Source: an uncultured Rhodobiaceae bacterium (GTDB lineage: Bacteria; Pseudomonadota; Alphaproteobacteria; RS24). Taken from it: DNA of 64,000 nucleotides. Numbering within the stretch: the stretch's first letter is position 1; each line of letters opens with the position of its first letter. A program made the position numbers and the translations under genes. Below are positions 19,527-43,666 of this stretch, piece after piece. Under the pieces are notes generated by a model that was not told the origin of the DNA, did no database searches, and was given only the letters and a program-made list of their open reading frames with translations. The stretch spans positions 621,501-685,500 of the forward strand of contig CALCUM010000003.1 in NCBI GenBank assembly GCA_937907245.1. Direction: 5' to 3'.

Positions 19527-20456
19527 ATGTCTGAATTTGCACTGAGCGCCCAAGGTCTTAAAAAAACCTATAAGGCAGCTGGCAATGCACCCGCGAAGCA
19601 AGCCCTCAAGGGCATTGATTTAAAGGTGCCGCGCGGGTCTATTTTTGGCCTCTTGGGGCCGAACGGGGCAGGCAAATCGACTTTCATCAACATCCTCGCT
19701 GGCATGGTGATGAAAACCGAAGGCACGGCCTCCATTTGGGGCTTTGATATTGACGAAAACCCGCGCCAATCGCGCGCGTCTATTGGCATTGTGCCGCAAG
19801 AATTATCTATCGACCCGTTTTTTACCCCGGGCGAAATTATGGATTTTCAGGCGGGTATGTATGGGGTTCCAAAATCGGAACGCCGCACCATGGATATTTT
19901 AAAAGCGGTCGGCCTCGACGACAAAGTGAACGCTTATGCGCGCACGCTTTCGGGCGGTATGCGGCGGCGTTTATTGGTTGCCAAAGCTCTGGTTCATAAT
20001 CCGCCCGTTTTGGTTCTCGACGAGCCGACAGCAGGCGTCGACATTGAGTTGCGTCGCCAACTTTGGGATTATGTCAAAGAGCTGAACGCGCAAGGTGTGA
20101 CCATTGTTTTGACCACGCATTACCTCGAAGAAGCCGAAGAACTATGCGACACCATTGCGATTATCGACCAAGGCGGGCTTGTGGCCTGTGACAGCACGCA
20201 AAACTTGCTGAGCCAAATTGATAATAAAACACTGCTTATTCGTCCCAGCTCGGCTCTATCGGCCGCTCCAGATTTGGGCAATATCGCTTGCAACTTGCGC
20301 GAAGATGGCCGCTTGGCGGTGCAGTATAATCCGGGCGATATGCACGCCGGCGCTGTGCTGGCTGCCGTACAAGGCGCCGGCATTGAAATTGTCGACCTCG
20401 ACACGCAAGGGGCCGAGCTTGAAACCATATTTATGAAACTCACCAGCCACAAATAA
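19527..20456 (+). CDS. ABC transporter ATP-binding protein (CcmA/NatA type)
   Basis: ATPase subunit of an ABC exporter, about 309 aa. Walker A GLLGPNGAGKST, signature LSGGMRRRLLVAKAL, Walker B PVLVLDEPTAGVD and the H-loop TTHYLEEAEELCD are all intact, followed by a ~90-residue C-terminal region typical of the multidrug/gliding-type ATPases. No permease gene is adjacent in the window, so the membrane partner must be elsewhere. The start is taken at 19527 (MSEFALSAQG) with AAGGA upstream; the 28 upstream codons are not family-like. It ends 19 bp before mce. Confidence 0.9.
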   Translation: MSEFALSAQGLKKTYKAAGNAPAKQALKGIDLKVPRGSIFGLLGPNGAGKSTFINILAGMVMKTEGTASIWGFDIDENPRQSRASIGIVPQELSIDPFFTPGEIMDFQAGMYGVPKSERRTMDILKAVGLDDKVNAYARTLSGGMRRRLLVAKALVHNPPVLVLDEPTAGVDIELRRQLWDYVKELNAQGVTIVLTTHYLEEAEELCDTIAIIDQGGLVACDSTQNLLSQIDNKTLLIRPSSALSAAPDLGNIACNLREDGRLAVQYNPGDMHAGAVLAAVQGAGIEIVDLDTQGAELETIFMKLTSHK

Positions 20457-29890: not shown

Positions 29891-29967
<77 letters not shown>

Positions 29968-30039: not shown

Positions 30040-30107
30040 TTTTCTTTCTTTTTTTGAAATCCCAAGATACGGTTCAAAAAGTTAGCATTTGTATTGAGTA
30101 TGTTGAA

Positions 30108-31290
30108 ATGAGTATGGGAAAAGACGCCGATGAGCGAATAGATTTGTATGACGATGGGCGAATAATCCTATTCAAACGCCCCGAATACAAGAAGCCGAAT
30201 TGGTATGCTCGGATAAAGGTCAGGGGATCTACTGGCTATAAAGTCGTTAGCACCAAAACAAGCGACCTAAGAAAAGCTGGTCGTTATGCTGACGAGTTAG
30301 CGGAAGAATTATATTACAAAGTTAAAGAGGGTGGGTCAGTCAACTCACCGTCATTCAAAAAAGTCTATAATGATTGGAAAAAGAACGCCCTTACAACTTC
30401 CTCCACACGCCAAGGGCAATCCTGGAAGAATACCTGTGAACGCATCGAAGCTTATGCCTTGGACTACTTCGCCAGCAAACGAATAGATAGCTTTAAGTCG
30501 GGGGACTTTGTTGAATATTTTAGTTGGCGTGAACACAACTACAAACGAACGAAACCATCGCCAAATACTTTAAAAAGAGAACGAACCTGCCTCTTACCCA
30601 TCTTTAATTATGCGTATCAAAAGAACCTAATCCGTGAACTGCCTTCAATACCTACAATAAAAGCCGAAGCAAAGCGCCGCCCCACTTTCACCGCCAAGGA
30701 GTGGGCGCGAATTACAAGAAAAATGCGCGATTGGGTTAAAGAGGGTAAGAAAGTTGGTAGCTGGCGTGAGCGATTTGTTGCCCAACAATATTTTCTTATT
30801 TTAGCCAATACTGGACTTAGGGTGGGAGAAGCAAGGGAACTGACTTGGGCAGATATTCGAAGGGTGGACACAAATAAAGAAAAGTTCGTTATTGCTGAGG
30901 TCGGGGGTAAAACAGGAAGTCGCGAAGTCATTTTTTCAGCAACAAGCTGAAACCTATATCGACCGCCTATGGGATCTTAGAAAAGAAGAATTGGGCGAAA
31001 ATCCGAGCGACGCTGAATTCGTATTTTGTAAAAAAGATGGGTCTTCGATTCATTCATTTAAGAAGTCATTCAGGAGCCTAATCGAGTTTTCGGGTATTAC
31101 TGAAAAACGTAATGGAATGGCTCGGAGTATCTACTCTCTTAGACACTTCTACGCAACGATGCGGCTCTCTAATAATGTAAGCCCCTGGATGCTAGCTAAG
31201 AATATGGGGACATCGGTTGAGATGCTCGACAAACATTACGGTCAAACTATTAACTCCGAACTCGCCGACCAGATCACTAAGACTTTATAG
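30108..31290 (+). pseudogene. Tyrosine-recombinase integrase, frameshifted
   Basis: An island integrase split into two frames. Part 1 (30108-30950) has an N-terminal arm-binding region, a SAM-like core-binding domain and the first catalytic arginine in NTGLRVGEAREL; part 2 (in the +1 frame) has SLRHFYATMRL and the nucleophile tyrosine in DKHYGQT. The frames join cleanly if one T is removed from the T6 run at 30931-30936, giving ...EVIFQQQAETY. All catalytic residues are otherwise present, so the lesion is recent, a sequencing error, or a slippage site. The start could also be an upstream TTG at 30054. Confidence 0.9.
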
Positions 31291-33117: not shown

Positions 33118-33217
33118 CAGACTTTACCTCCGACTACTTTTTTAGCCTCCTTAGCTATTCTGTTTATAGAGGTTCGGTAATGGTTCTCTACCTCTTAGAC
33201 AGAACTGGAGATAGAAT
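33118..33217 (+). promoter_or_regulatory. Leader repeat, copy A, with conserved hairpin
   Basis: First of three related ~100-bp segments, each placed directly before a small gene. It opens with CAGACTTTACCTCCGACTAC, continues to TTAGCTATTCT, then has a hairpin AGAGGT (33168-33173) / ACCTCT (33190-33195) around a 16-nt loop containing GGTAATGGTTCTC, then GGAG and the start ATG at 33218. The stem differs from copies B and C at three positions, each with a matching change in the partner strand. Confidence 0.8.
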
Positions 33218-33661
33218 ATGTCTGATTGTAAAAAAAGCACAGACACTCAAAAGCACCTTCGAGAGATTAAGCTTAATCAAGCAGTAGAGCTGAATGATAG
33301 TTTCGGTTATTGGATATCCCGAAGCGCCTATATCTATTCTTTTAGAAAAGACTTGCTACCTTTGCCCCCATATAAGCATCAAATTTTACCTTTCAAAGGC
33401 GCGGGCTTGGTGTTCCGCTCGGGGTGGATGACTATTATTGAGGACGAGACAATTCCCGAAGACGAATTCCACAAATATCATATTCTATATCGTGGGATAG
33501 GCTTTCCGAATGGCGAATATTGGAAAATTTGTGATTTTGTTCCTGAGAATTTTGAGACCGACTTACCCTATGTGTCGTTTGTTGATGATTTTTGCCAACA
33601 AGCTTACCCGACTAATATGCGAATTTGTCCTTCTTCACGCAAATCAACAATTAGCATTTGA
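33218..33661 (+). CDS. Island protein behind leader A, unknown
   Basis: A 147-aa soluble protein starting at the ATG that follows GGAG by 7 bp. It is rich in Tyr, Phe and Pro and ends in a short basic tail (CPSSRKSTISI). No family recognised. It is the first of three genes (33218, 33783, 34320) that share the repeated leader, which suggests common control; the three proteins themselves are not obviously related to one another. Confidence 0.7.
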   Translation: MSDCKKSTDTQKHLREIKLNQAVELNDSFGYWISRSAYIYSFRKDLLPLPPYKHQILPFKGAGLVFRSGWMTIIEDETIPEDEFHKYHILYRGIGFPNGEYWKICDFVPENFETDLPYVSFVDDFCQQAYPTNMRICPSSRKSTISI

Positions 33662-33677: not shown

Positions 33678-33782
33678 CAGACTTTACCTCCGACTACTTT
33701 TTAGCCGCCGTTAGCTATTCTGAATATGAAGCTAGGGAATGGTTTTTTAGCTTCTTAACTGAAAAGTCTTATGGAGAAAACT
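33678..33782 (+). promoter_or_regulatory. Leader repeat, copy B, with conserved hairpin
   Basis: Second leader copy. The first 44 bp are nearly identical to copy C. Hairpin GAAGCT (33728-33733) / AGCTTC (33749-33754), extendable by one A-T pair, loop GGGAATGGTTTTT; GGAG at 33773-33776 serves the ATG at 33783. Confidence 0.8.
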
Positions 33783-34196
33783 ATGGCTCAACTACAACAA
33801 TTTAAGCTTGCTCGCGAGCAAGGAAGAAAAGTAAAGCACACCAAAACATCACCTTTTTTAACGTCAATGATAGAAGACCTATCTCACGACTTGAAGGGTT
33901 GTATAAACGATAGCAGGTTTGTGTTTGAGGATAAAAATACTGGAATAGAAGTTCACGTTGATTTTGACGAGAACGCAACCTTCCAACGTGAAACTCCGAG
34001 GCAAAAACTTGCTGAGAACGTCTTTCTTATCCTTTATCCAGGCTCAAAAAAGAGACACGCAAAGATGTTTACAAGAGAGACTGGCTATAAAGGTTCGTTA
34101 AACACAGCCGCGTTTCTATTGGCTCACGCTAGCTATTTGTTGGCGCTGAAAGAAGCTGAATTCCTTAATACATTTTTATGTGATGAAGCTGCCTAA
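33783..34196 (+). CDS. Island protein behind leader B, unknown
   Basis: A 137-aa protein (MAQLQQFKLAREQ...). I place the start at 33783 because GGAG lies 6 bp upstream and this aligns with the starts after leaders A and C; an ATG four codons earlier overlaps that GGAG. The N-terminus is basic, the middle has a beta-rich stretch (GIEVHVDFDENATF), and the C-terminal third is helical and hydrophobic (AAFLLAHASYLLALKEAEF). No family recognised. Confidence 0.7.
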   Translation: MAQLQQFKLAREQGRKVKHTKTSPFLTSMIEDLSHDLKGCINDSRFVFEDKNTGIEVHVDFDENATFQRETPRQKLAENVFLILYPGSKKRHAKMFTRETGYKGSLNTAAFLLAHASYLLALKEAEFLNTFLCDEAA

Positions 34197-34215
34197 TTAG
34201 CTTTTAGGCGGTTGT

Positions 34216-34319
34216 CAGACTTTACCTCCGACTACTTTTTAGCCGCCGTTAGCTATTCTAATAATGAAGCTGAGGAATGGTTCTTTAGCTTCTTAATTGA
34301 AAAAACTATGAGGTTTAAA
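34216..34319 (+). promoter_or_regulatory. Leader repeat, copy C, with conserved hairpin
   Basis: Third leader copy. Hairpin GAAGCT (34266-34271) / AGCTTC (34287-34292), extendable by a G-T wobble where copy B has A-T; loop AGGAATGGTTCTT. GAGG near 34310 serves the ATG at 34320. The 20 bp upstream of the copy (TTTTAGGCGGTTGTCAGAC region) recurs at 34683-34701, beyond the gene. Confidence 0.8.
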
Positions 34320-34667
34320 ATGACTAAAATTGAAAAAACTATAACTTTGAATGAACTGAACTCTATTGAGTTCGAAGCTGCCTGCCCCCGCTGTGATGCT
34401 GAAACCACTATCGGTTTAAGGGGTTCTCATTCCTGTAGTAACTGTGGTTTGGTGATTGAATATGTGGCTCGCTCTTACATACCCACCGATTTAGAGGAAA
34501 TAAACGAACAACGTGATAATCACGCCTTAGAACCGATGAGTGAAATGGATATCCCTACTTGGTGGATGGATTATGCTTGTCGAAATAAGGAGTTTTCCTT
34601 AGGGGTGGATTTTCAACTTAAGGATGAGGTTTCGCTTCCGTTTGAATGGAAAGCTGAGCCCCGCTAA
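34320..34667 (+). CDS. Zinc-ribbon protein behind leader C
   Basis: A 115-aa acidic protein with a zinc-ribbon: CPRC at residues 22-25 and CSNC at 39-42, followed by a helical C-terminal region. Start at 34320 (MTKIEKT), chosen by analogy with the other two leader-controlled genes and by GAGG upstream; the frame stays open into the leader back to a TTG at 34212, but that extension is the repeat itself. Zinc ribbons of this size are found in small regulators and in accessory proteins; no function is assigned. Confidence 0.7.
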   Translation: MTKIEKTITLNELNSIEFEAACPRCDAETTIGLRGSHSCSNCGLVIEYVARSYIPTDLEEINEQRDNHALEPMSEMDIPTWWMDYACRNKEFSLGVDFQLKDEVSLPFEWKAEPR

Positions 34668-34682
34668 AGCAGCTAAATTCGT

Positions 34683-34722
34683 TTTTAGGCGGTTGTCAGA
34701 CTTTACTTACGACCGCCTAAAA
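34683..34722. repeat. 11-bp inverted repeat, possible origin or terminator
   Basis: TTTTAGGCGGT (34683-34693) and ACCGCCTAAAA (34712-34722) enclose an 18-nt loop that contains CAGACTTTAC, the opening of the leader repeats. It lies 16 bp after the zinc-ribbon gene, so it may be its terminator (T-rich tail follows). It is also 187 bp before the RHH/Rep operon and could be part of a replication origin. Confidence 0.6.
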
Positions 34723-35066: not shown

Positions 35067-35741
35067 ATGAATTTAGAACACCTGACATATCAAAAAGTAA
35101 AACTCTTTACTGACCTCTATAAAGATACTGAAGCTGATAGGGCTAAAGAAGCCTGTCTATATCACGCTACCGTTACCTTTCGCCCAGGCTGGCTATTTAA
35201 AAATAAGGATAAAGAATTTGAAGTAGTGAAGGCTGCTTATCTGGCTCTAATTAATAAAGCTAATAAGGCGTCGATGAATAAATCTGACAGAGCACGAAAT
35301 AAGCCTTATCTGCTTCAAGACTTTTCTAGCTTTGAGGATTTATCTAGAAACTCAATAGATGATACTTACCTTCACGCGCACGCTATCTGGTTTATCCATC
35401 CTAAAGTCGTCTCCCGCTTTAACCAACGCTTTGAGGATATGTGGCGGAATAGTTCGCCGCTCTTTATTGCTGATGAGCCTGTAGAACTTTCTAAAGCTAT
35501 ACATTCCGTAAAGCTCGTTCCTATTCGCCCTAAAATGCGCCGTTATGGATTTAAGGAGCGTTGGGAACTCTTAACTACGGAAATTAACTACATCCTTAAG
35601 CAAAATGAATTCAGTGGAAAATTTATAAAGGATACAAGTAATTCCTTAGGCGGCGTTTCTTTTGCTGATGAACTAAAGAACCTTACTAAACGACAATCAC
35701 GCTTCGGTTTGTTTTCTCCCGTGAGTAGCCGCTTTTACTAG
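35067..35741 (+). CDS. Probable HUH rolling-circle replication initiator
   Basis: A 224-aa protein that carries, in order, a motif-I-like strand ATVTF (34-38), the metal-binding pair H103-A-H105 within YLHAHAIWFI, an RFEDMW segment and INYILKQN with a Y175-x-x-K178 nucleophile motif. That order and spacing match HUH Rep proteins, which nick a double-strand origin and attach to the 5' end. It directly follows the RHH gene with no ribosome site of its own, implying coupling. Identification is from motifs only, with no overall similarity that I can name. Its last ~15 codons recur as a remnant at 36824. Confidence 0.65.
   Translation: MNLEHLTYQKVKLFTDLYKDTEADRAKEACLYHATVTFRPGWLFKNKDKEFEVVKAAYLALINKANKASMNKSDRARNKPYLLQDFSSFEDLSRNSIDDTYLHAHAIWFIHPKVVSRFNQRFEDMWRNSSPLFIADEPVELSKAIHSVKLVPIRPKMRRYGFKERWELLTTEINYILKQNEFSGKFIKDTSNSLGGVSFADELKNLTKRQSRFGLFSPVSSRFY
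35691..35735. repeat. 3' end of rep, left copy of cargo-flanking repeat
   Basis: A 31-bp core (35701-35731) is identical to 36834-36864, with imperfect extension on both sides. In this copy it encodes the C-terminus SRFGLFSPVSSRFY of the Rep-like protein. Confidence 0.85.
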
Positions 35742-35799
35742 ACTTATAAAAACCTCTGGAATTTGTTACTCTTAGATTGGTTATTTGAGGAAATATTGA

Positions 35800-36822
35800 A
35801 TGAGCGATAATCAAGAAGGTAACTACACAATAAAGGTAGTTGAAGGCGATGGATTTCGCCTTCAGGAATATAACTTGGATGATGAAGAAATTGGGTATGA
35901 GTTGGAGCCCAACGTAATGACTCACTTCTTTGACGTCTATGATGTTGAACTAACGTCTGAGTTGGGTAATGAAACAGAAACGTTAGAATGGGAACTATCT
36001 TCATTTCCGATGTTCGACAAGTCACCAAGGCTAGAAGCGTATTTTAGACGATTCAATAGCTTGGAGGGGCAAACCCAAAAAGCCAAATCCATCAAAATAG
36101 ATCAACGACTGACGGCTAAATTAAAAACGACGCTAACAAAATATGATCGAAGCTGGGGTGATCCATTAAAGTATTTTATAATGGGGTCTCATAAACCGAT
36201 TGAGGAGTTTGCTTTAAAAATATCAACCACTGATCAAGATGAAGAATATATGGTGGTTTTGGTTAACGACGCTTGGGAATATGAGGGCGAAACTCTCCCG
36301 TCAAGGTTATCAATCAATGTTTTGCTTCACAAACAAAACTTTGATGACCTTATCAACTCCTTAGAAAAATTCCCCGAACAGAAAATAAGCTTTTCGTGTG
36401 AACTTTCGGGGGCTTACTCGCAATATTCTTATTTATCGTCTTATGACGTCTCTGAGGTAAAGTTATTAACCGAGCATACTTTGGACGGCATCATAGCGGG
36501 TAATAAAACTTTTTTTGGTAAACATAAAGGTTTCGATCCTTACCATCTAAATTGTTCTTTGACCGATAAAGAACGCACTCTAGACGAGTTTTCCTTACGC
36601 ACGGTGACAAAATTAAGTAATTCGGAAAGCCTTCAAAGCGAAGCCGAGGAAGACACTGAACCGCAGCAGGAGCTTGATAGTATTGATTATAATATACCAT
36701 CGGAAATAACCAATGTCACAGCCAGCTCAGCTTCGACGAAAGAAGAGTTTAGTTATACGGTATTAGTTATTCCACTTTGGACCATAGCAGTTTTAATATT
36801 TCTGAGCCTCGTAATTAATTGA
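35800..36822 (+). CDS. Tail-anchored cargo protein, unknown
   Basis: A 340-aa acidic protein with a long soluble N-terminal region and one C-terminal membrane helix (VLVIPLWTIAVLIFLSLVI, final 20 residues), so it is probably anchored to the inner membrane facing the cytoplasm. GAGGA precedes the ATG. A Gln/Glu-rich linker (EAEEDTEPQQELDS) joins body and anchor. No family recognised. The gene lies alone between the rep gene and a remnant of a second rep 3' end, which marks it as separately acquired cargo; such lone membrane-tethered proteins on islands are often defence or exclusion factors, but that is conjecture. Confidence 0.75.
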   Translation: MSDNQEGNYTIKVVEGDGFRLQEYNLDDEEIGYELEPNVMTHFFDVYDVELTSELGNETETLEWELSSFPMFDKSPRLEAYFRRFNSLEGQTQKAKSIKIDQRLTAKLKTTLTKYDRSWGDPLKYFIMGSHKPIEEFALKISTTDQDEEYMVVLVNDAWEYEGETLPSRLSINVLLHKQNFDDLINSLEKFPEQKISFSCELSGAYSQYSYLSSYDVSEVKLLTEHTLDGIIAGNKTFFGKHKGFDPYHLNCSLTDKERTLDEFSLRTVTKLSNSESLQSEAEEDTEPQQELDSIDYNIPSEITNVTASSASTKEEFSYTVLVIPLWTIAVLIFLSLVIN

Positions 36823-36823
36823 A

Positions 36824-36869
36824 CGGCAATCAAGCTTCGGTTTGTTTTCTCCCGTGAGTAGCCGTTTAT
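36824..36869 (+). pseudogene. Remnant of a second rep gene 3' end
   Basis: Immediately after the stop of the 35800 gene the reading frame RQSSFGLFSPVSSRL followed by TAA matches the C-terminus of the Rep-like protein (RQSRFGLFSPVSSRFY). The nucleotide core is 31 identical bases (36834-36864). No upstream part of rep is present here. Confidence 0.75.
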
Positions 36870-36916
36870 AAGTATCGGAATGGGTTTTGAGGAGACTTAC
36901 CCCCCCTAACTGGGTA

Positions 36917-39570: not shown

Positions 39571-40131
39571 ATGTTTATCGGATACGCCAGAACTTCAACA
39601 GTCGAACAGCAATACGGCTTAGACCACCAAGAGACGATACTTATCGATACTGTCGGCTGTGATAAAGTTTTTAAGGAGCAAGTATCAAGCGTTGGTAAAC
39701 GCCCTGAGTTTGAAGCGGCTATAGAATTCGCCCGTGAAGGGGATGTCTTTGTCGTGACTAAGCTGGATAGGTTCGCCCGCTCCATTACTGACTTGTGGAA
39801 TAACGTCGAACGGCTTCGGGCTAAGGGCGTTGAGTTGAATATCGTTGATATGAACCTTGATACTTCCACGCCTACAGGAAAGCTACTTTTGAGCCTGATG
39901 GGTTCGATCGCTGAGTTTGAACGGGAGATATTGCTGGAACGTCAGCGTATTGGTATCGCTAAGGCTAAGGCTGAAGGAAAATACAAAGGGCGTGCTCCGA
40001 AAGCTCGAGATAAGGAATTGGATATTCAACGTATGACTGCTGAGGGTAAGAAGCCCAAAGCCATCGCTGAGGCTCTCGGAATCTCTGTTCCCTCTGTCTA
40101 TAAGTATCGAAATAGGTTATCCAGTATTTGA
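39571..40131 (+). CDS. Serine recombinase (resolvase/invertase family)
   Basis: A 186-aa small serine recombinase. The nucleophile is Ser9 in YARTSTVEQQ with Arg7 beside it; KLDRFARS and the long helix SIAEFEREILLERQRIG follow, and the C-terminus is a helix-turn-helix (KPKAIAEALGISVPSVYKY). All catalytic parts appear intact. AAGGA precedes the ATG. It could invert, resolve or integrate DNA within the island. The segment coding its HTH (40051-40110) recurs, diverged, after the R-M genes. Confidence 0.92.
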   Translation: MFIGYARTSTVEQQYGLDHQETILIDTVGCDKVFKEQVSSVGKRPEFEAAIEFAREGDVFVVTKLDRFARSITDLWNNVERLRAKGVELNIVDMNLDTSTPTGKLLLSLMGSIAEFEREILLERQRIGIAKAKAEGKYKGRAPKARDKELDIQRMTAEGKKPKAIAEALGISVPSVYKYRNRLSSI

Positions 40132-40162: not shown

Positions 40163-41410
40163 ATGATACCGAGTCCAGAAAATACAGCAGATTATATTAA
40201 ATACAAACGACAGAGCCTTGGCTTAACTCAAAAGGAATTCGCTGAGTTACTGGGGCTTAGGGATACTAGCGAGCGAACTATCAGCGGCTGGGAGCGTGGC
40301 GAACACACTCCAACCAAAGCAAAATTCAAAGAAATAGAAACGATCAATGTTTCAGTTCCCTTCCGCAAAACAGGTAAAACCACGTTTGATTTTATTGACC
40401 TATTCGCTGGTATTGGCGGGATGCGTCTGCCATTTCAAGAATTAGGCGGGAAATGCGTCTTTACATCGGAGTGGGATAAATTCGCTAAAAAGACATACGC
40501 CGCTAACTACGGCGAACTACCATTCGGAGACATTTCAAAAATTCCAAGCGAACAAATTCCTAACCACGATGTTTTGCTTGCTGGATTTCCCTGCCAAGCA
40601 TTCTCACAGGCTGGGCTAAAGAGGGGTTTCGCCGACACTCGCGGAACTATGTTTTTCGAAATTCAAAGAATTCTATCAGCTAAGCGACCTAAAGCGTTTC
40701 TATTAGAGAATGTTAAGCAATTAAAAGGGCACGACAAGGGCAGAACTCTAGAGACCATCCTCTCAATTCTAAGGGGTGAAAACGCACCTAAAATTCCAGA
40801 TAACATTCAAATATCCGACGAAGCTCGTCAAAGCCTTCAGGCAAGATTAAACTATGCTGTAGATTTCCGAGTTTTAAAGGCTTCAGATTTTGGCGTGCCT
40901 CAAGGTAGGGAGCGTGTTTATATCGTCGGATTCGACAGATCCCAACTTGGTGATAAAAGCATTGATACAGTTTTAAACGATATTTTCGAGGACTTGTGTT
41001 CCCGAAAGAGCGCCACACGCCTCGGGGATATTATGGAGAAACACGCAGAAATAGATCCAAAATATACGATTTCAGATAAATTGCTTTCGGGTCACAAAAG
41101 GCGTCTGGAAGAGCACAAAAATAAGGGCAATGGCTTTGGTTTCAGTGTATTCAATGAGGATAGCCCTTATTGTAATACAATCAGTGCTCGCTACTACAAA
41201 GACGGCAGTGAGATTTTGCTTAGTCAGGAAAAATTAGGGAAAAACCCAAGAAAGCTCACTCCAAGAGAGTGCGCTCGGATCCAGGGATTTCCTGAAAACT
41301 TCATAGTTAGTGCCGTTTCTGACGCTCAAATATACAAACAATTTGGCAACTCTGTAGCCGTTCCTGTCGTTCGAGAAGTAGCAAAAAAAATAGTCCAAAC
41401 TATTTCCTAG
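40163..41410 (+). CDS. C5-cytosine DNA methyltransferase with N-terminal HTH
   Basis: A 415-aa modification methylase. Residues ~8-60 are an XRE-type helix-turn-helix (LTQKEFAELLG...TISGWERGEHTP), followed by a complete C5-methylase: motif I DLFAGIGGMRLPF, catalytic PCQ with Cys144 (AGFPCQAFSQAG), ENV at ~182-184, QGRERVYIVGFD, and GNSVAVPVVREVAKKI. An HTH-fused methylase that represses its own R-M operon is known from the SsoII/Ecl18kI group; the architecture here is the same, but the recognition sequence cannot be predicted by eye. Little ribosome site is visible. The endonuclease follows after 58 bp. Confidence 0.93.
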   Translation: MIPSPENTADYIKYKRQSLGLTQKEFAELLGLRDTSERTISGWERGEHTPTKAKFKEIETINVSVPFRKTGKTTFDFIDLFAGIGGMRLPFQELGGKCVFTSEWDKFAKKTYAANYGELPFGDISKIPSEQIPNHDVLLAGFPCQAFSQAGLKRGFADTRGTMFFEIQRILSAKRPKAFLLENVKQLKGHDKGRTLETILSILRGENAPKIPDNIQISDEARQSLQARLNYAVDFRVLKASDFGVPQGRERVYIVGFDRSQLGDKSIDTVLNDIFEDLCSRKSATRLGDIMEKHAEIDPKYTISDKLLSGHKRRLEEHKNKGNGFGFSVFNEDSPYCNTISARYYKDGSEILLSQEKLGKNPRKLTPRECARIQGFPENFIVSAVSDAQIYKQFGNSVAVPVVREVAKKIVQTIS

Positions 41411-41468
41411 TCCACTCGCTTAATCTGTTGTTTTATGGAACAATAAAACCCTAATCTGAGGGTTACCT

Positions 41469-42455
41469 ATGAAGCGACTTACATTCGATGGAAAAACAAT
41501 AACAATAACCGATCCTAAAGAATTACATTTTGAAAATTCTTTGGACGAGTTCCTCTATGGTTTCGTTTACCAGCGTTTGACAGATGGGTCGGATTATCGA
41601 CCACTGATAAACGCAGATGCCCTTCACGATGGCTCACTAGGAATCAATATAAAAGAACTTTTTTTGGATTCTGGAATTAAAATTAAGCCGCCATCGGTGA
41701 AAGCAACAAATCAACATCGATTATTCGACCAACATATAATTAGGAATTTCATTAGTAGGTTCCCTGTTTTTCTCGGACTTTTCCAAAATGTTGTAGTGCT
41801 CGCCGATCAAGCCATAAAAAACGCAGAGATACTGGTTGGCGAGGAAGTGAATTCAAAGAACTTTATCAAAATCAAAGGCGTAATTGATGAGGTAAATAGA
41901 AAGGCTTGGAGCAGGGTTAAAGATCAAAGCGAAAGCCAGTCTGGCGTATCAACGCTTGGAACTATATCAGAGACTTTGTTGAAGATTATTTTCGATAAGC
42001 TTGTAGATGAAACAACGTTTTTTAAAGTCGATCAAAGCTCAGTTCAGTCATATGGCGACTTTGTGCTGATGTGTTTGCCAAATAATCTATGGTTATCCGT
42101 GAAGTCAAACTTTGCTCGTGAGCGACTTTTGGCTTCTGGATATACTAATGACATTCTTGGCGTTGGATTCTTTCAAGACCCAACCGAATTCACTAGCAAT
42201 GTAAGAATTAGGAATTTTCAACGAGCTGGCTTCTTGGCTATGTATTGCCCTGACGTGTCGGTAAGCGAGGAGCAACTCGCTGATAACACTAATACCTATG
42301 ACCTTATTATAGCCTCCTATAAAGCTCAGGGCAGCACGCTGCCAACGAATATTAACGGTAAGCCGTTTATACGAAAACTAAGTGACCTTTATGGTGATCT
42401 CGAGGCTCTATTAATTGAATCTGACATTAGAAAAAGAACCACGGTAAACTTTTAA
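41469..42455 (+). CDS. Type II restriction endonuclease, PD-(D/E)XK-like
   Basis: A 328-aa protein directly after the C5-methylase, with GAGGG before the ATG. The likely catalytic core is YGDFVL...LSVKSN: Asp197, then S-V-K with Lys212, spaced as in many type II nucleases with degenerate PD-(D/E)XK sites. The position and the core make it the cognate restriction enzyme. Family beyond that is not recognised. It ends 15 bp before the resolvase remnant. Confidence 0.8.
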   Translation: MKRLTFDGKTITITDPKELHFENSLDEFLYGFVYQRLTDGSDYRPLINADALHDGSLGINIKELFLDSGIKIKPPSVKATNQHRLFDQHIIRNFISRFPVFLGLFQNVVVLADQAIKNAEILVGEEVNSKNFIKIKGVIDEVNRKAWSRVKDQSESQSGVSTLGTISETLLKIIFDKLVDETTFFKVDQSSVQSYGDFVLMCLPNNLWLSVKSNFARERLLASGYTNDILGVGFFQDPTEFTSNVRIRNFQRAGFLAMYCPDVSVSEEQLADNTNTYDLIIASYKAQGSTLPTNINGKPFIRKLSDLYGDLEALLIESDIRKRTTVNF

Positions 42456-42470
42456 ACTTGGTGGGGTCTA

Positions 42471-42542
42471 AAGCTCAAAGCAATCGCTGAGGCTCTCGGA
42501 ATTTCGGTTCCCTCGGTTTACAAATATCGGGAGGCTGCTTAG
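42471..42542 (+). pseudogene. Remnant of a second resolvase 3' end
   Basis: Sixty bases (42471-42530) match the resolvase segment 40051-40110 at 51 positions and preserve the reading frame: KLKAIAEALGISVPSVYKYREAA followed by TAG. Eight of the nine differences are synonymous, so this derives from a functional homologue rather than a fresh copy. Nothing upstream of the HTH remains. Confidence 0.85.
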
Positions 42543-43618: not shown

Positions 43619-43666
43619 GCCCTCCGAAGGCAGAGGTCACAGGTTCGAATCCTGTCGGGTGCACCA
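43619..43666 (+). repeat. Right attachment repeat (attR), tRNA-Arg 3' fragment
   Basis: A 48-bp copy of the tRNA-Arg 3' half including CCA, without the 5' half, so not a functional tRNA. It differs from the left copy in one T-stem pair (both sides changed) and the discriminator base. By the usual logic of tRNA integration this is the original host 3' end displaced by the island. Confidence 0.92.

Follow-up and report, generated by a model that had tools for sequence, protein, structure and literature searches.

A gene for a 340-residue protein lies between two copies of the 3' end of the gene that precedes it, a putative replication initiator (here called rep). The arrangement belongs to a 13.7-kb island in the window, the 64-kb stretch of DNA that was analysed as a whole, and similar patterns are seen at three places in this island: at rep and its 340-residue cargo, at a serine recombinase and its methyltransferase cargo, and at the tRNA boundary. 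We propose, and give the idea an even chance of being right, that the island grew stepwise and that its cargo was gained by recombination at the 3' ends of mobility genes that it carries itself. The feature itself is real and of a known kind, namely an insertion at the 3' end of a gene in which the gene tail is repeated; what is unusual is that it recurs in one island and that the island's own mobility genes are used.

The island is bounded by tRNA-Arg(CCG) and a copy of the tRNA 3' end (Table 1), and its GC content is about 0.40, compared to about 0.52 outside. From left to right it contains an integrase, a CopG-like gene, the putative rep, the 340-residue cargo, four minus-strand genes, the serine recombinase, the methyltransferase with a partner ORF, two small ORFs and the right border. 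Between positions 20000 and 64000 all long direct repeats fall inside the island, except for one weak host pair (25713, 74%). The tyrosine integrase (30054-31290) is spread over two frames with a break at about 30930 near a six-T run, so that it looks frameshifted, through either a broken gene or a sequencing error. The same genome has a second integrase island (C2, tRNA-Met), which shares with the present one only a distant integrase. An island-like region at a tRNA-Met (L048:267-19901), with an integrase that is distantly related, carries apparent metal efflux genes (CusA-like, MerR-like).

Table 1. Features of the island, with positions in the 64-kb window.
Feature	Position	Strand	Remarks
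tRNA-Arg(CCG), island attachment site	29891-29967	+	last 48 nt (29920-29967) recur at 43619-43666
Strong hairpin 5' of copG/rep, candidate replication origin	34683-34722	+	14-bp stem plus 2 bp, 6-nt loop; contains TTACTTACGAC
CopG/ribbon-helix-helix protein, 50 aa	34909-35061	+	Pfam RHH_1 E 8e-4, just under cut-off; PHROG CopG-like repressor E 5e-6
Putative HUH-type replication initiator (rep), 224 aa	35067-35741	+	motifs HATVTF (33), HAHAIWF (103), NYILK (174), read from the sequence
rep 3' tail copy 1, 43 nt	35689-35731	+	core 35701-35731
340-aa cargo gene	35800-36822	+	single C-terminal hydrophobic helix, residues ~320-340
rep 3' tail copy 2	36822-36864	+	41/43 identical to copy 1; core 36834-36864
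Serine-recombinase 3' tail remnant (VYKYRNGF, stop), joined directly to rep tail	36864-36890	+	19/22 nt to 40097-40118
Complete small serine recombinase, 186 aa, Resolvase + HTH	39571-40131	+	PF00239 E 2e-38
Second cargo: C5-cytosine methyltransferase (40163-41410) and partner ORF (41469-42455)	40163-42455	+	PF00145 E 1e-96; PADLOC MTase_II
Serine-recombinase 3' tail remnant behind second cargo (KLKAIAEALGISVPSVYKYREAA, stop)	42471-42542	+	83% over 66 nt; tblastn E 1e-7
Island right boundary, copy of tRNA-Arg 3' end	43619-43666	+	repeat search

The 31-bp core of the rep repeat, GCTTCGGTTTGTTTTCTCCCGTGAGTAGCCG, occurs exactly twice in the 64 kb, with 0 occurrences expected in shuffles. As the first-pass annotation had noticed, its two copies are identical and differences occur nearby; the sequence differs at both borders. 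Ungapped similarity runs from 35689 to 35737 and from 36822 to 36870 (92%), and at the protein level the rep tail matches 36815-36865 with E = 4e-4 within the island. The second copy starts 0 nt behind the stop codon of the cargo (TGA, 36820-36822), and 2 nt further an in-frame remnant, RQSSFGLFSPVSSRL followed by a stop, begins in the frame of rep; the earlier description of a lone 340-residue gene between a full rep-like gene and such a remnant is thus correct. The island has one complete rep, located before the cargo. The two differences between the 43-nt copies are too few to separate exchange from in-place duplication. For the cargo protein the structural model was unusable (pLDDT 35). 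A terminator or a structured RNA was rejected as an explanation of the repeat, which shows no T-run, no clear fold and no Rfam match; a degenerate DNA pattern of the core gave 0 matches in GTDB and IMG/VR. Nor was the repeat encountered as a widespread terminator-like sequence, a finding named beforehand as one that would speak against the insertion.

The sequence to the right of the second copy has a different origin from that first assumed. The remnant, including its final leucine and stop, had been taken as a rep 3' end, yet rep-derived sequence ends at about 36864, and TTTATAAGTATCGGAATGGGTTTTGA after it matches the 3' end of the island serine recombinase. A repeat search pairs 36864-36886 with 40096-40118 in this 3' end (20/23). 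When the 40 nt after the second core were compared with the last 90 nt of 18 island genes, the serine recombinase was the best gene tail (19/22); none of 1000 dinucleotide-shuffled queries reached this match, nor did any of 300 shuffled queries against the whole island. Read in frame, the remnant is VYKYRNGF and a stop, compared to VYKYRNRLSSI and a stop in the resident recombinase. Because recombinase sequence follows the second core, the final leucine and stop of the rep-frame remnant come from the recombinase, read in a different frame, and are a by-product of the fusion.

The pattern recurs where the methyltransferase and its partner ORF, by its position probably a restriction enzyme, follow the complete serine recombinase. 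Behind this second cargo, DNA similarity to the recombinase tail starts at 42464, 8 nt behind the stop (42455). In a tblastn comparison of all island proteins with the island (E < 1e-3), leader repeats aside, the only tail duplications were two, that of rep and that of the recombinase behind the methyltransferase. The aligned recombinase tails KPKAIAEALGISVPSVYKYR and KLKAIAEALGISVPSVYKYR differ by 8 synonymous and 1 non-synonymous codons in the 20 aligned codons up to YKYR, and by 8 and 5 if the unaligned last codons are added. Since mostly synonymous divergence is the pattern of copies evolving in working proteins, the tail at 42471 belongs to another allele and is no copy of the present gene made at insertion. 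It is what is left of a separate allele that was once functional, and this favours exchange over in-place duplication. Seventeen other serine-recombinase loci (3.6-19.5 kb), together with four shorter or viral ones, had no short in-frame copy of their own tail behind other genes. The only extra matches were to a second recombinase or to HTH-like stretches in other frames, so this family of recombinases does not routinely leave tail remnants. Elsewhere in the genome, a second C5-methyltransferase with a partner ORF (L046:1302-2749), distantly related to that of the island (34%), is located between thiD-like and TPR genes. Behind the TPR gene there is a 0.48-kb intergenic tandem duplication (L046:4657-5411) whose parts are 82-88% identical and contain terminator-like hairpins.

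How might such units have been gained? We hypothesize that the 340-residue gene arrived by recombination with a crossover in the last ~43 nt of rep. The incoming DNA would have consisted of a rep tail, a 58-nt spacer and the cargo, most simply as a small circle that entered by a Campbell-type single crossover. A crossover at the resident rep end would leave the cargo preceded by a complete rep and followed at once by a spare tail. In copy 1 the left part, and in copy 2 the right part, would then stem from the recipient, and the empty site is predicted to read AACGACAATCAC-core-TTTATAAGTATCGG, with TTTATAAGTATCGGAATGGG following the core without a gap. As a recombinase tail forms the right flank, the recipient site would already have been a scar, presumably of an earlier event in which the rep end became joined to the final codons of a serine recombinase. 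A similar event may have put the methyltransferase cargo behind the present recombinase, leaving the tail of another allele. The repeats, with their identity, positions and junctions, and the recurrence are observed; the direction of the events and the circular intermediate are inferred, and recombination at the tail could be homologous or site-specific. Stepwise gain is supported by the exact 31-bp core and the 41/43 tail, by a tail that starts at the cargo stop, by the second case with its recombinase tail 8 nt behind a stop, and by a third recombinase tail that begins just where the rep tail stops. Counting against it, no related element that would show the empty site or the donor turned up in the collections searched, no integrase acting at these tails was identified, and homologous recombination over only 31-43 bp is inefficient. 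The original suggestion that a unit of cargo plus rep 3' end was added at the rep terminus is supported in part: the geometry agrees with it, with one complete rep, a 43-nt tail behind the cargo stop and flanks that differ around an identical core, but the downstream flank is not a simple rep end.

The main rival is a tandem duplication, or the integration of a whole related replicon, which would have given two full reps, followed by deletion of the second down to its last codons, with the recombinase treated likewise. Islands often decay by deletion, the integrase of the present one seems frameshifted as well, and recombinase tails from different alleles are to be expected of former whole genes. 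However, with tails that start 0 and 8 nt behind the cargo stops, deletions must have hit there twice by chance or have been confined by selection, and a rep remnant 5' of codon 206 is found nowhere else in the island. We consider this history possible, if on balance unlikely.

A second alternative, insertion with long target duplication, in which the insertion reaction itself would have copied the rep end, is the closest described pattern. Nobusato et al. (2000) reportedly recognized it at restriction-modification loci of Helicobacter pylori, and descriptions of the pattern are available (PMC1643837, PMC4978471). Here, too, the cargo is bracketed by a direct repeat of the end of a neighbouring gene that is complete on one side and a remnant on the other, the rep tails are 95% identical, and one of the two cargos has a methyltransferase gene. 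On the other hand, the repeat is only 43-72 nt long, the targets are the island's own mobility genes, and the 340-residue cargo stands alone, encodes a C-terminal hydrophobic helix and was assigned to restriction-modification by no search. Moreover, one of the two tails comes from another allele: with 8/20 codons synonymously different, the recombinase tail is no duplicate of the present gene. We regard this reaction as quite improbable here.

The rep protein itself could also have driven the capture, if the 3' end of its gene were the nick site, or origin, and if duplication of this origin allowed cargo circles to be cut out and joined by rolling-circle replication in an IS91/ISCR-like manner. 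The 224-residue protein has an HUH motif followed by a catalytic-tyrosine candidate in the order of HUH enzymes (HAH 103-105, Tyr 175 in NYILK), and a CopG gene precedes it. Its single-sequence model (pLDDT 48) indicates no more than a ferredoxin-like/RRM-like palm class, and IS608 TnpA is among the weak structural matches (Z 6.7), tied with unrelated entries. Because no family match in Pfam, PHROG or NCBIfam, no meaningful PDB match and no confident match in structure searches with the low-confidence model confirm an HUH initiator, rep is only the likely label for this protein. YagK_YfjJ (PF11726), considered as the rep family, was absent from the genome itself and from the sampled class genomes. 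Against capture by rep, no hairpin is conserved in the rep tail (z of +1.5 and -0.8 on the plus strand; overall range +1.5 to -1.5 against shuffles). A strong hairpin is instead present upstream of copG, where pMV158-type origins are located (DNA fold z = -5.2; 0/200 shuffles). The recombinase tails would also be left unexplained, and we regard this mechanism as very improbable.

In pMV158, the hairpin that RepB nicks, at TACTACG/AC, is located upstream of copG (PMC5030251, PMC3387028). The island module resembles such copG-rep systems in that a small RHH/CopG gene immediately precedes an HUH-like rep, and in the strong upstream hairpin with a TACG/AC-like flank. It differs in that the protein matches neither RepB/Rep_2 nor any other family, the candidate nick motif TTACTTACGAC is similar to the pMV158-type TACTACGAC but not exact, and the module is inside a chromosomal island. 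Similar stretches are found behind two of three leader-preceded genes (34186-34232 and 34667-34713). The first has only the left arm and loop of the hairpin, AGGCGGTTGTCAGACTTTACyTmCGAC, the full structure being that in Table 1, and is a candidate half-site repeat of the putative origin.

Chance or an assembly artefact, for which nothing specific speaks, is of negligible probability: no matches are expected in shuffles, copies and flanks that differ are not the product of simple misassembly, and the contig exceeds 1 Mb in a genome of three contigs.

Returning to stepwise gain, comparison with other systems shows both likenesses and differences. Like attL/attR attachment at tRNA genes, by which the island itself docks at tRNA-Arg, the proposed events would use a gene 3' end as docking site, restore the gene by the incoming copy and leave a tail at the far side. 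Unlike it, the inserted units (~1.1 and 2.4 kb) contain no integrase, and for the tails of rep and of the recombinase no integrase is known. Integron cassettes (ORF and attC) are also compact ORFs with a short recombination-like tail right behind, but here the tails are protein-gene ends without an attC-like fold, and no integron integrase was found. A broader version, in which rep and serine-recombinase 3' ends are reusable docking sites for compact cassettes (a cargo ORF or operon plus a gene tail), exchange is integron-independent and the order of capture can be read from the tails, is distinctly unlikely to hold. The arrangement suggests how a tRNA island may add accessory genes, including methyltransferase/restriction genes, one at a time with its own mobility genes unharmed. 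Searches for mobility-gene tails that follow cargo stop codons could also serve to map cargo boundaries and the order of gains in other islands.

Neither rep nor the 340-residue cargo has a convincing relative in the collections searched, and no related core was found in them either; for rep they comprised IMG/VR, GTDB genome contigs, phages, plasmids and overlapping sets of 144 relatives, 385 class and 398 phylum genomes; the absence holds for these collections, and several of the scans detect close relatives only. A relative that carries the cargo without the repeat, which would have contradicted the first-pass reading, was accordingly not encountered in them. Weak rep matches, such as that in G134, were rejected as fragments with stops or short stretches in other frames, and a 31-bp blastn match of the remnant in G062 lies inside an unrelated conserved gene. 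Three other island proteins found only distant serine recombinases in IMG/VR.

The leader repeats of the island likewise had no relatives in the collections searched. This 88-nt leader is present in three copies that are 68-92% identical (33118-33205, 33678-33765 and 34216-34303), each before a different small gene (starts at 33218, 33771 and 34320). It could encode a short peptide (beginning DFTSDYFLAAVSYS) that overlaps the start of the next gene, and the differences between the two closest copies are mostly non-synonymous.
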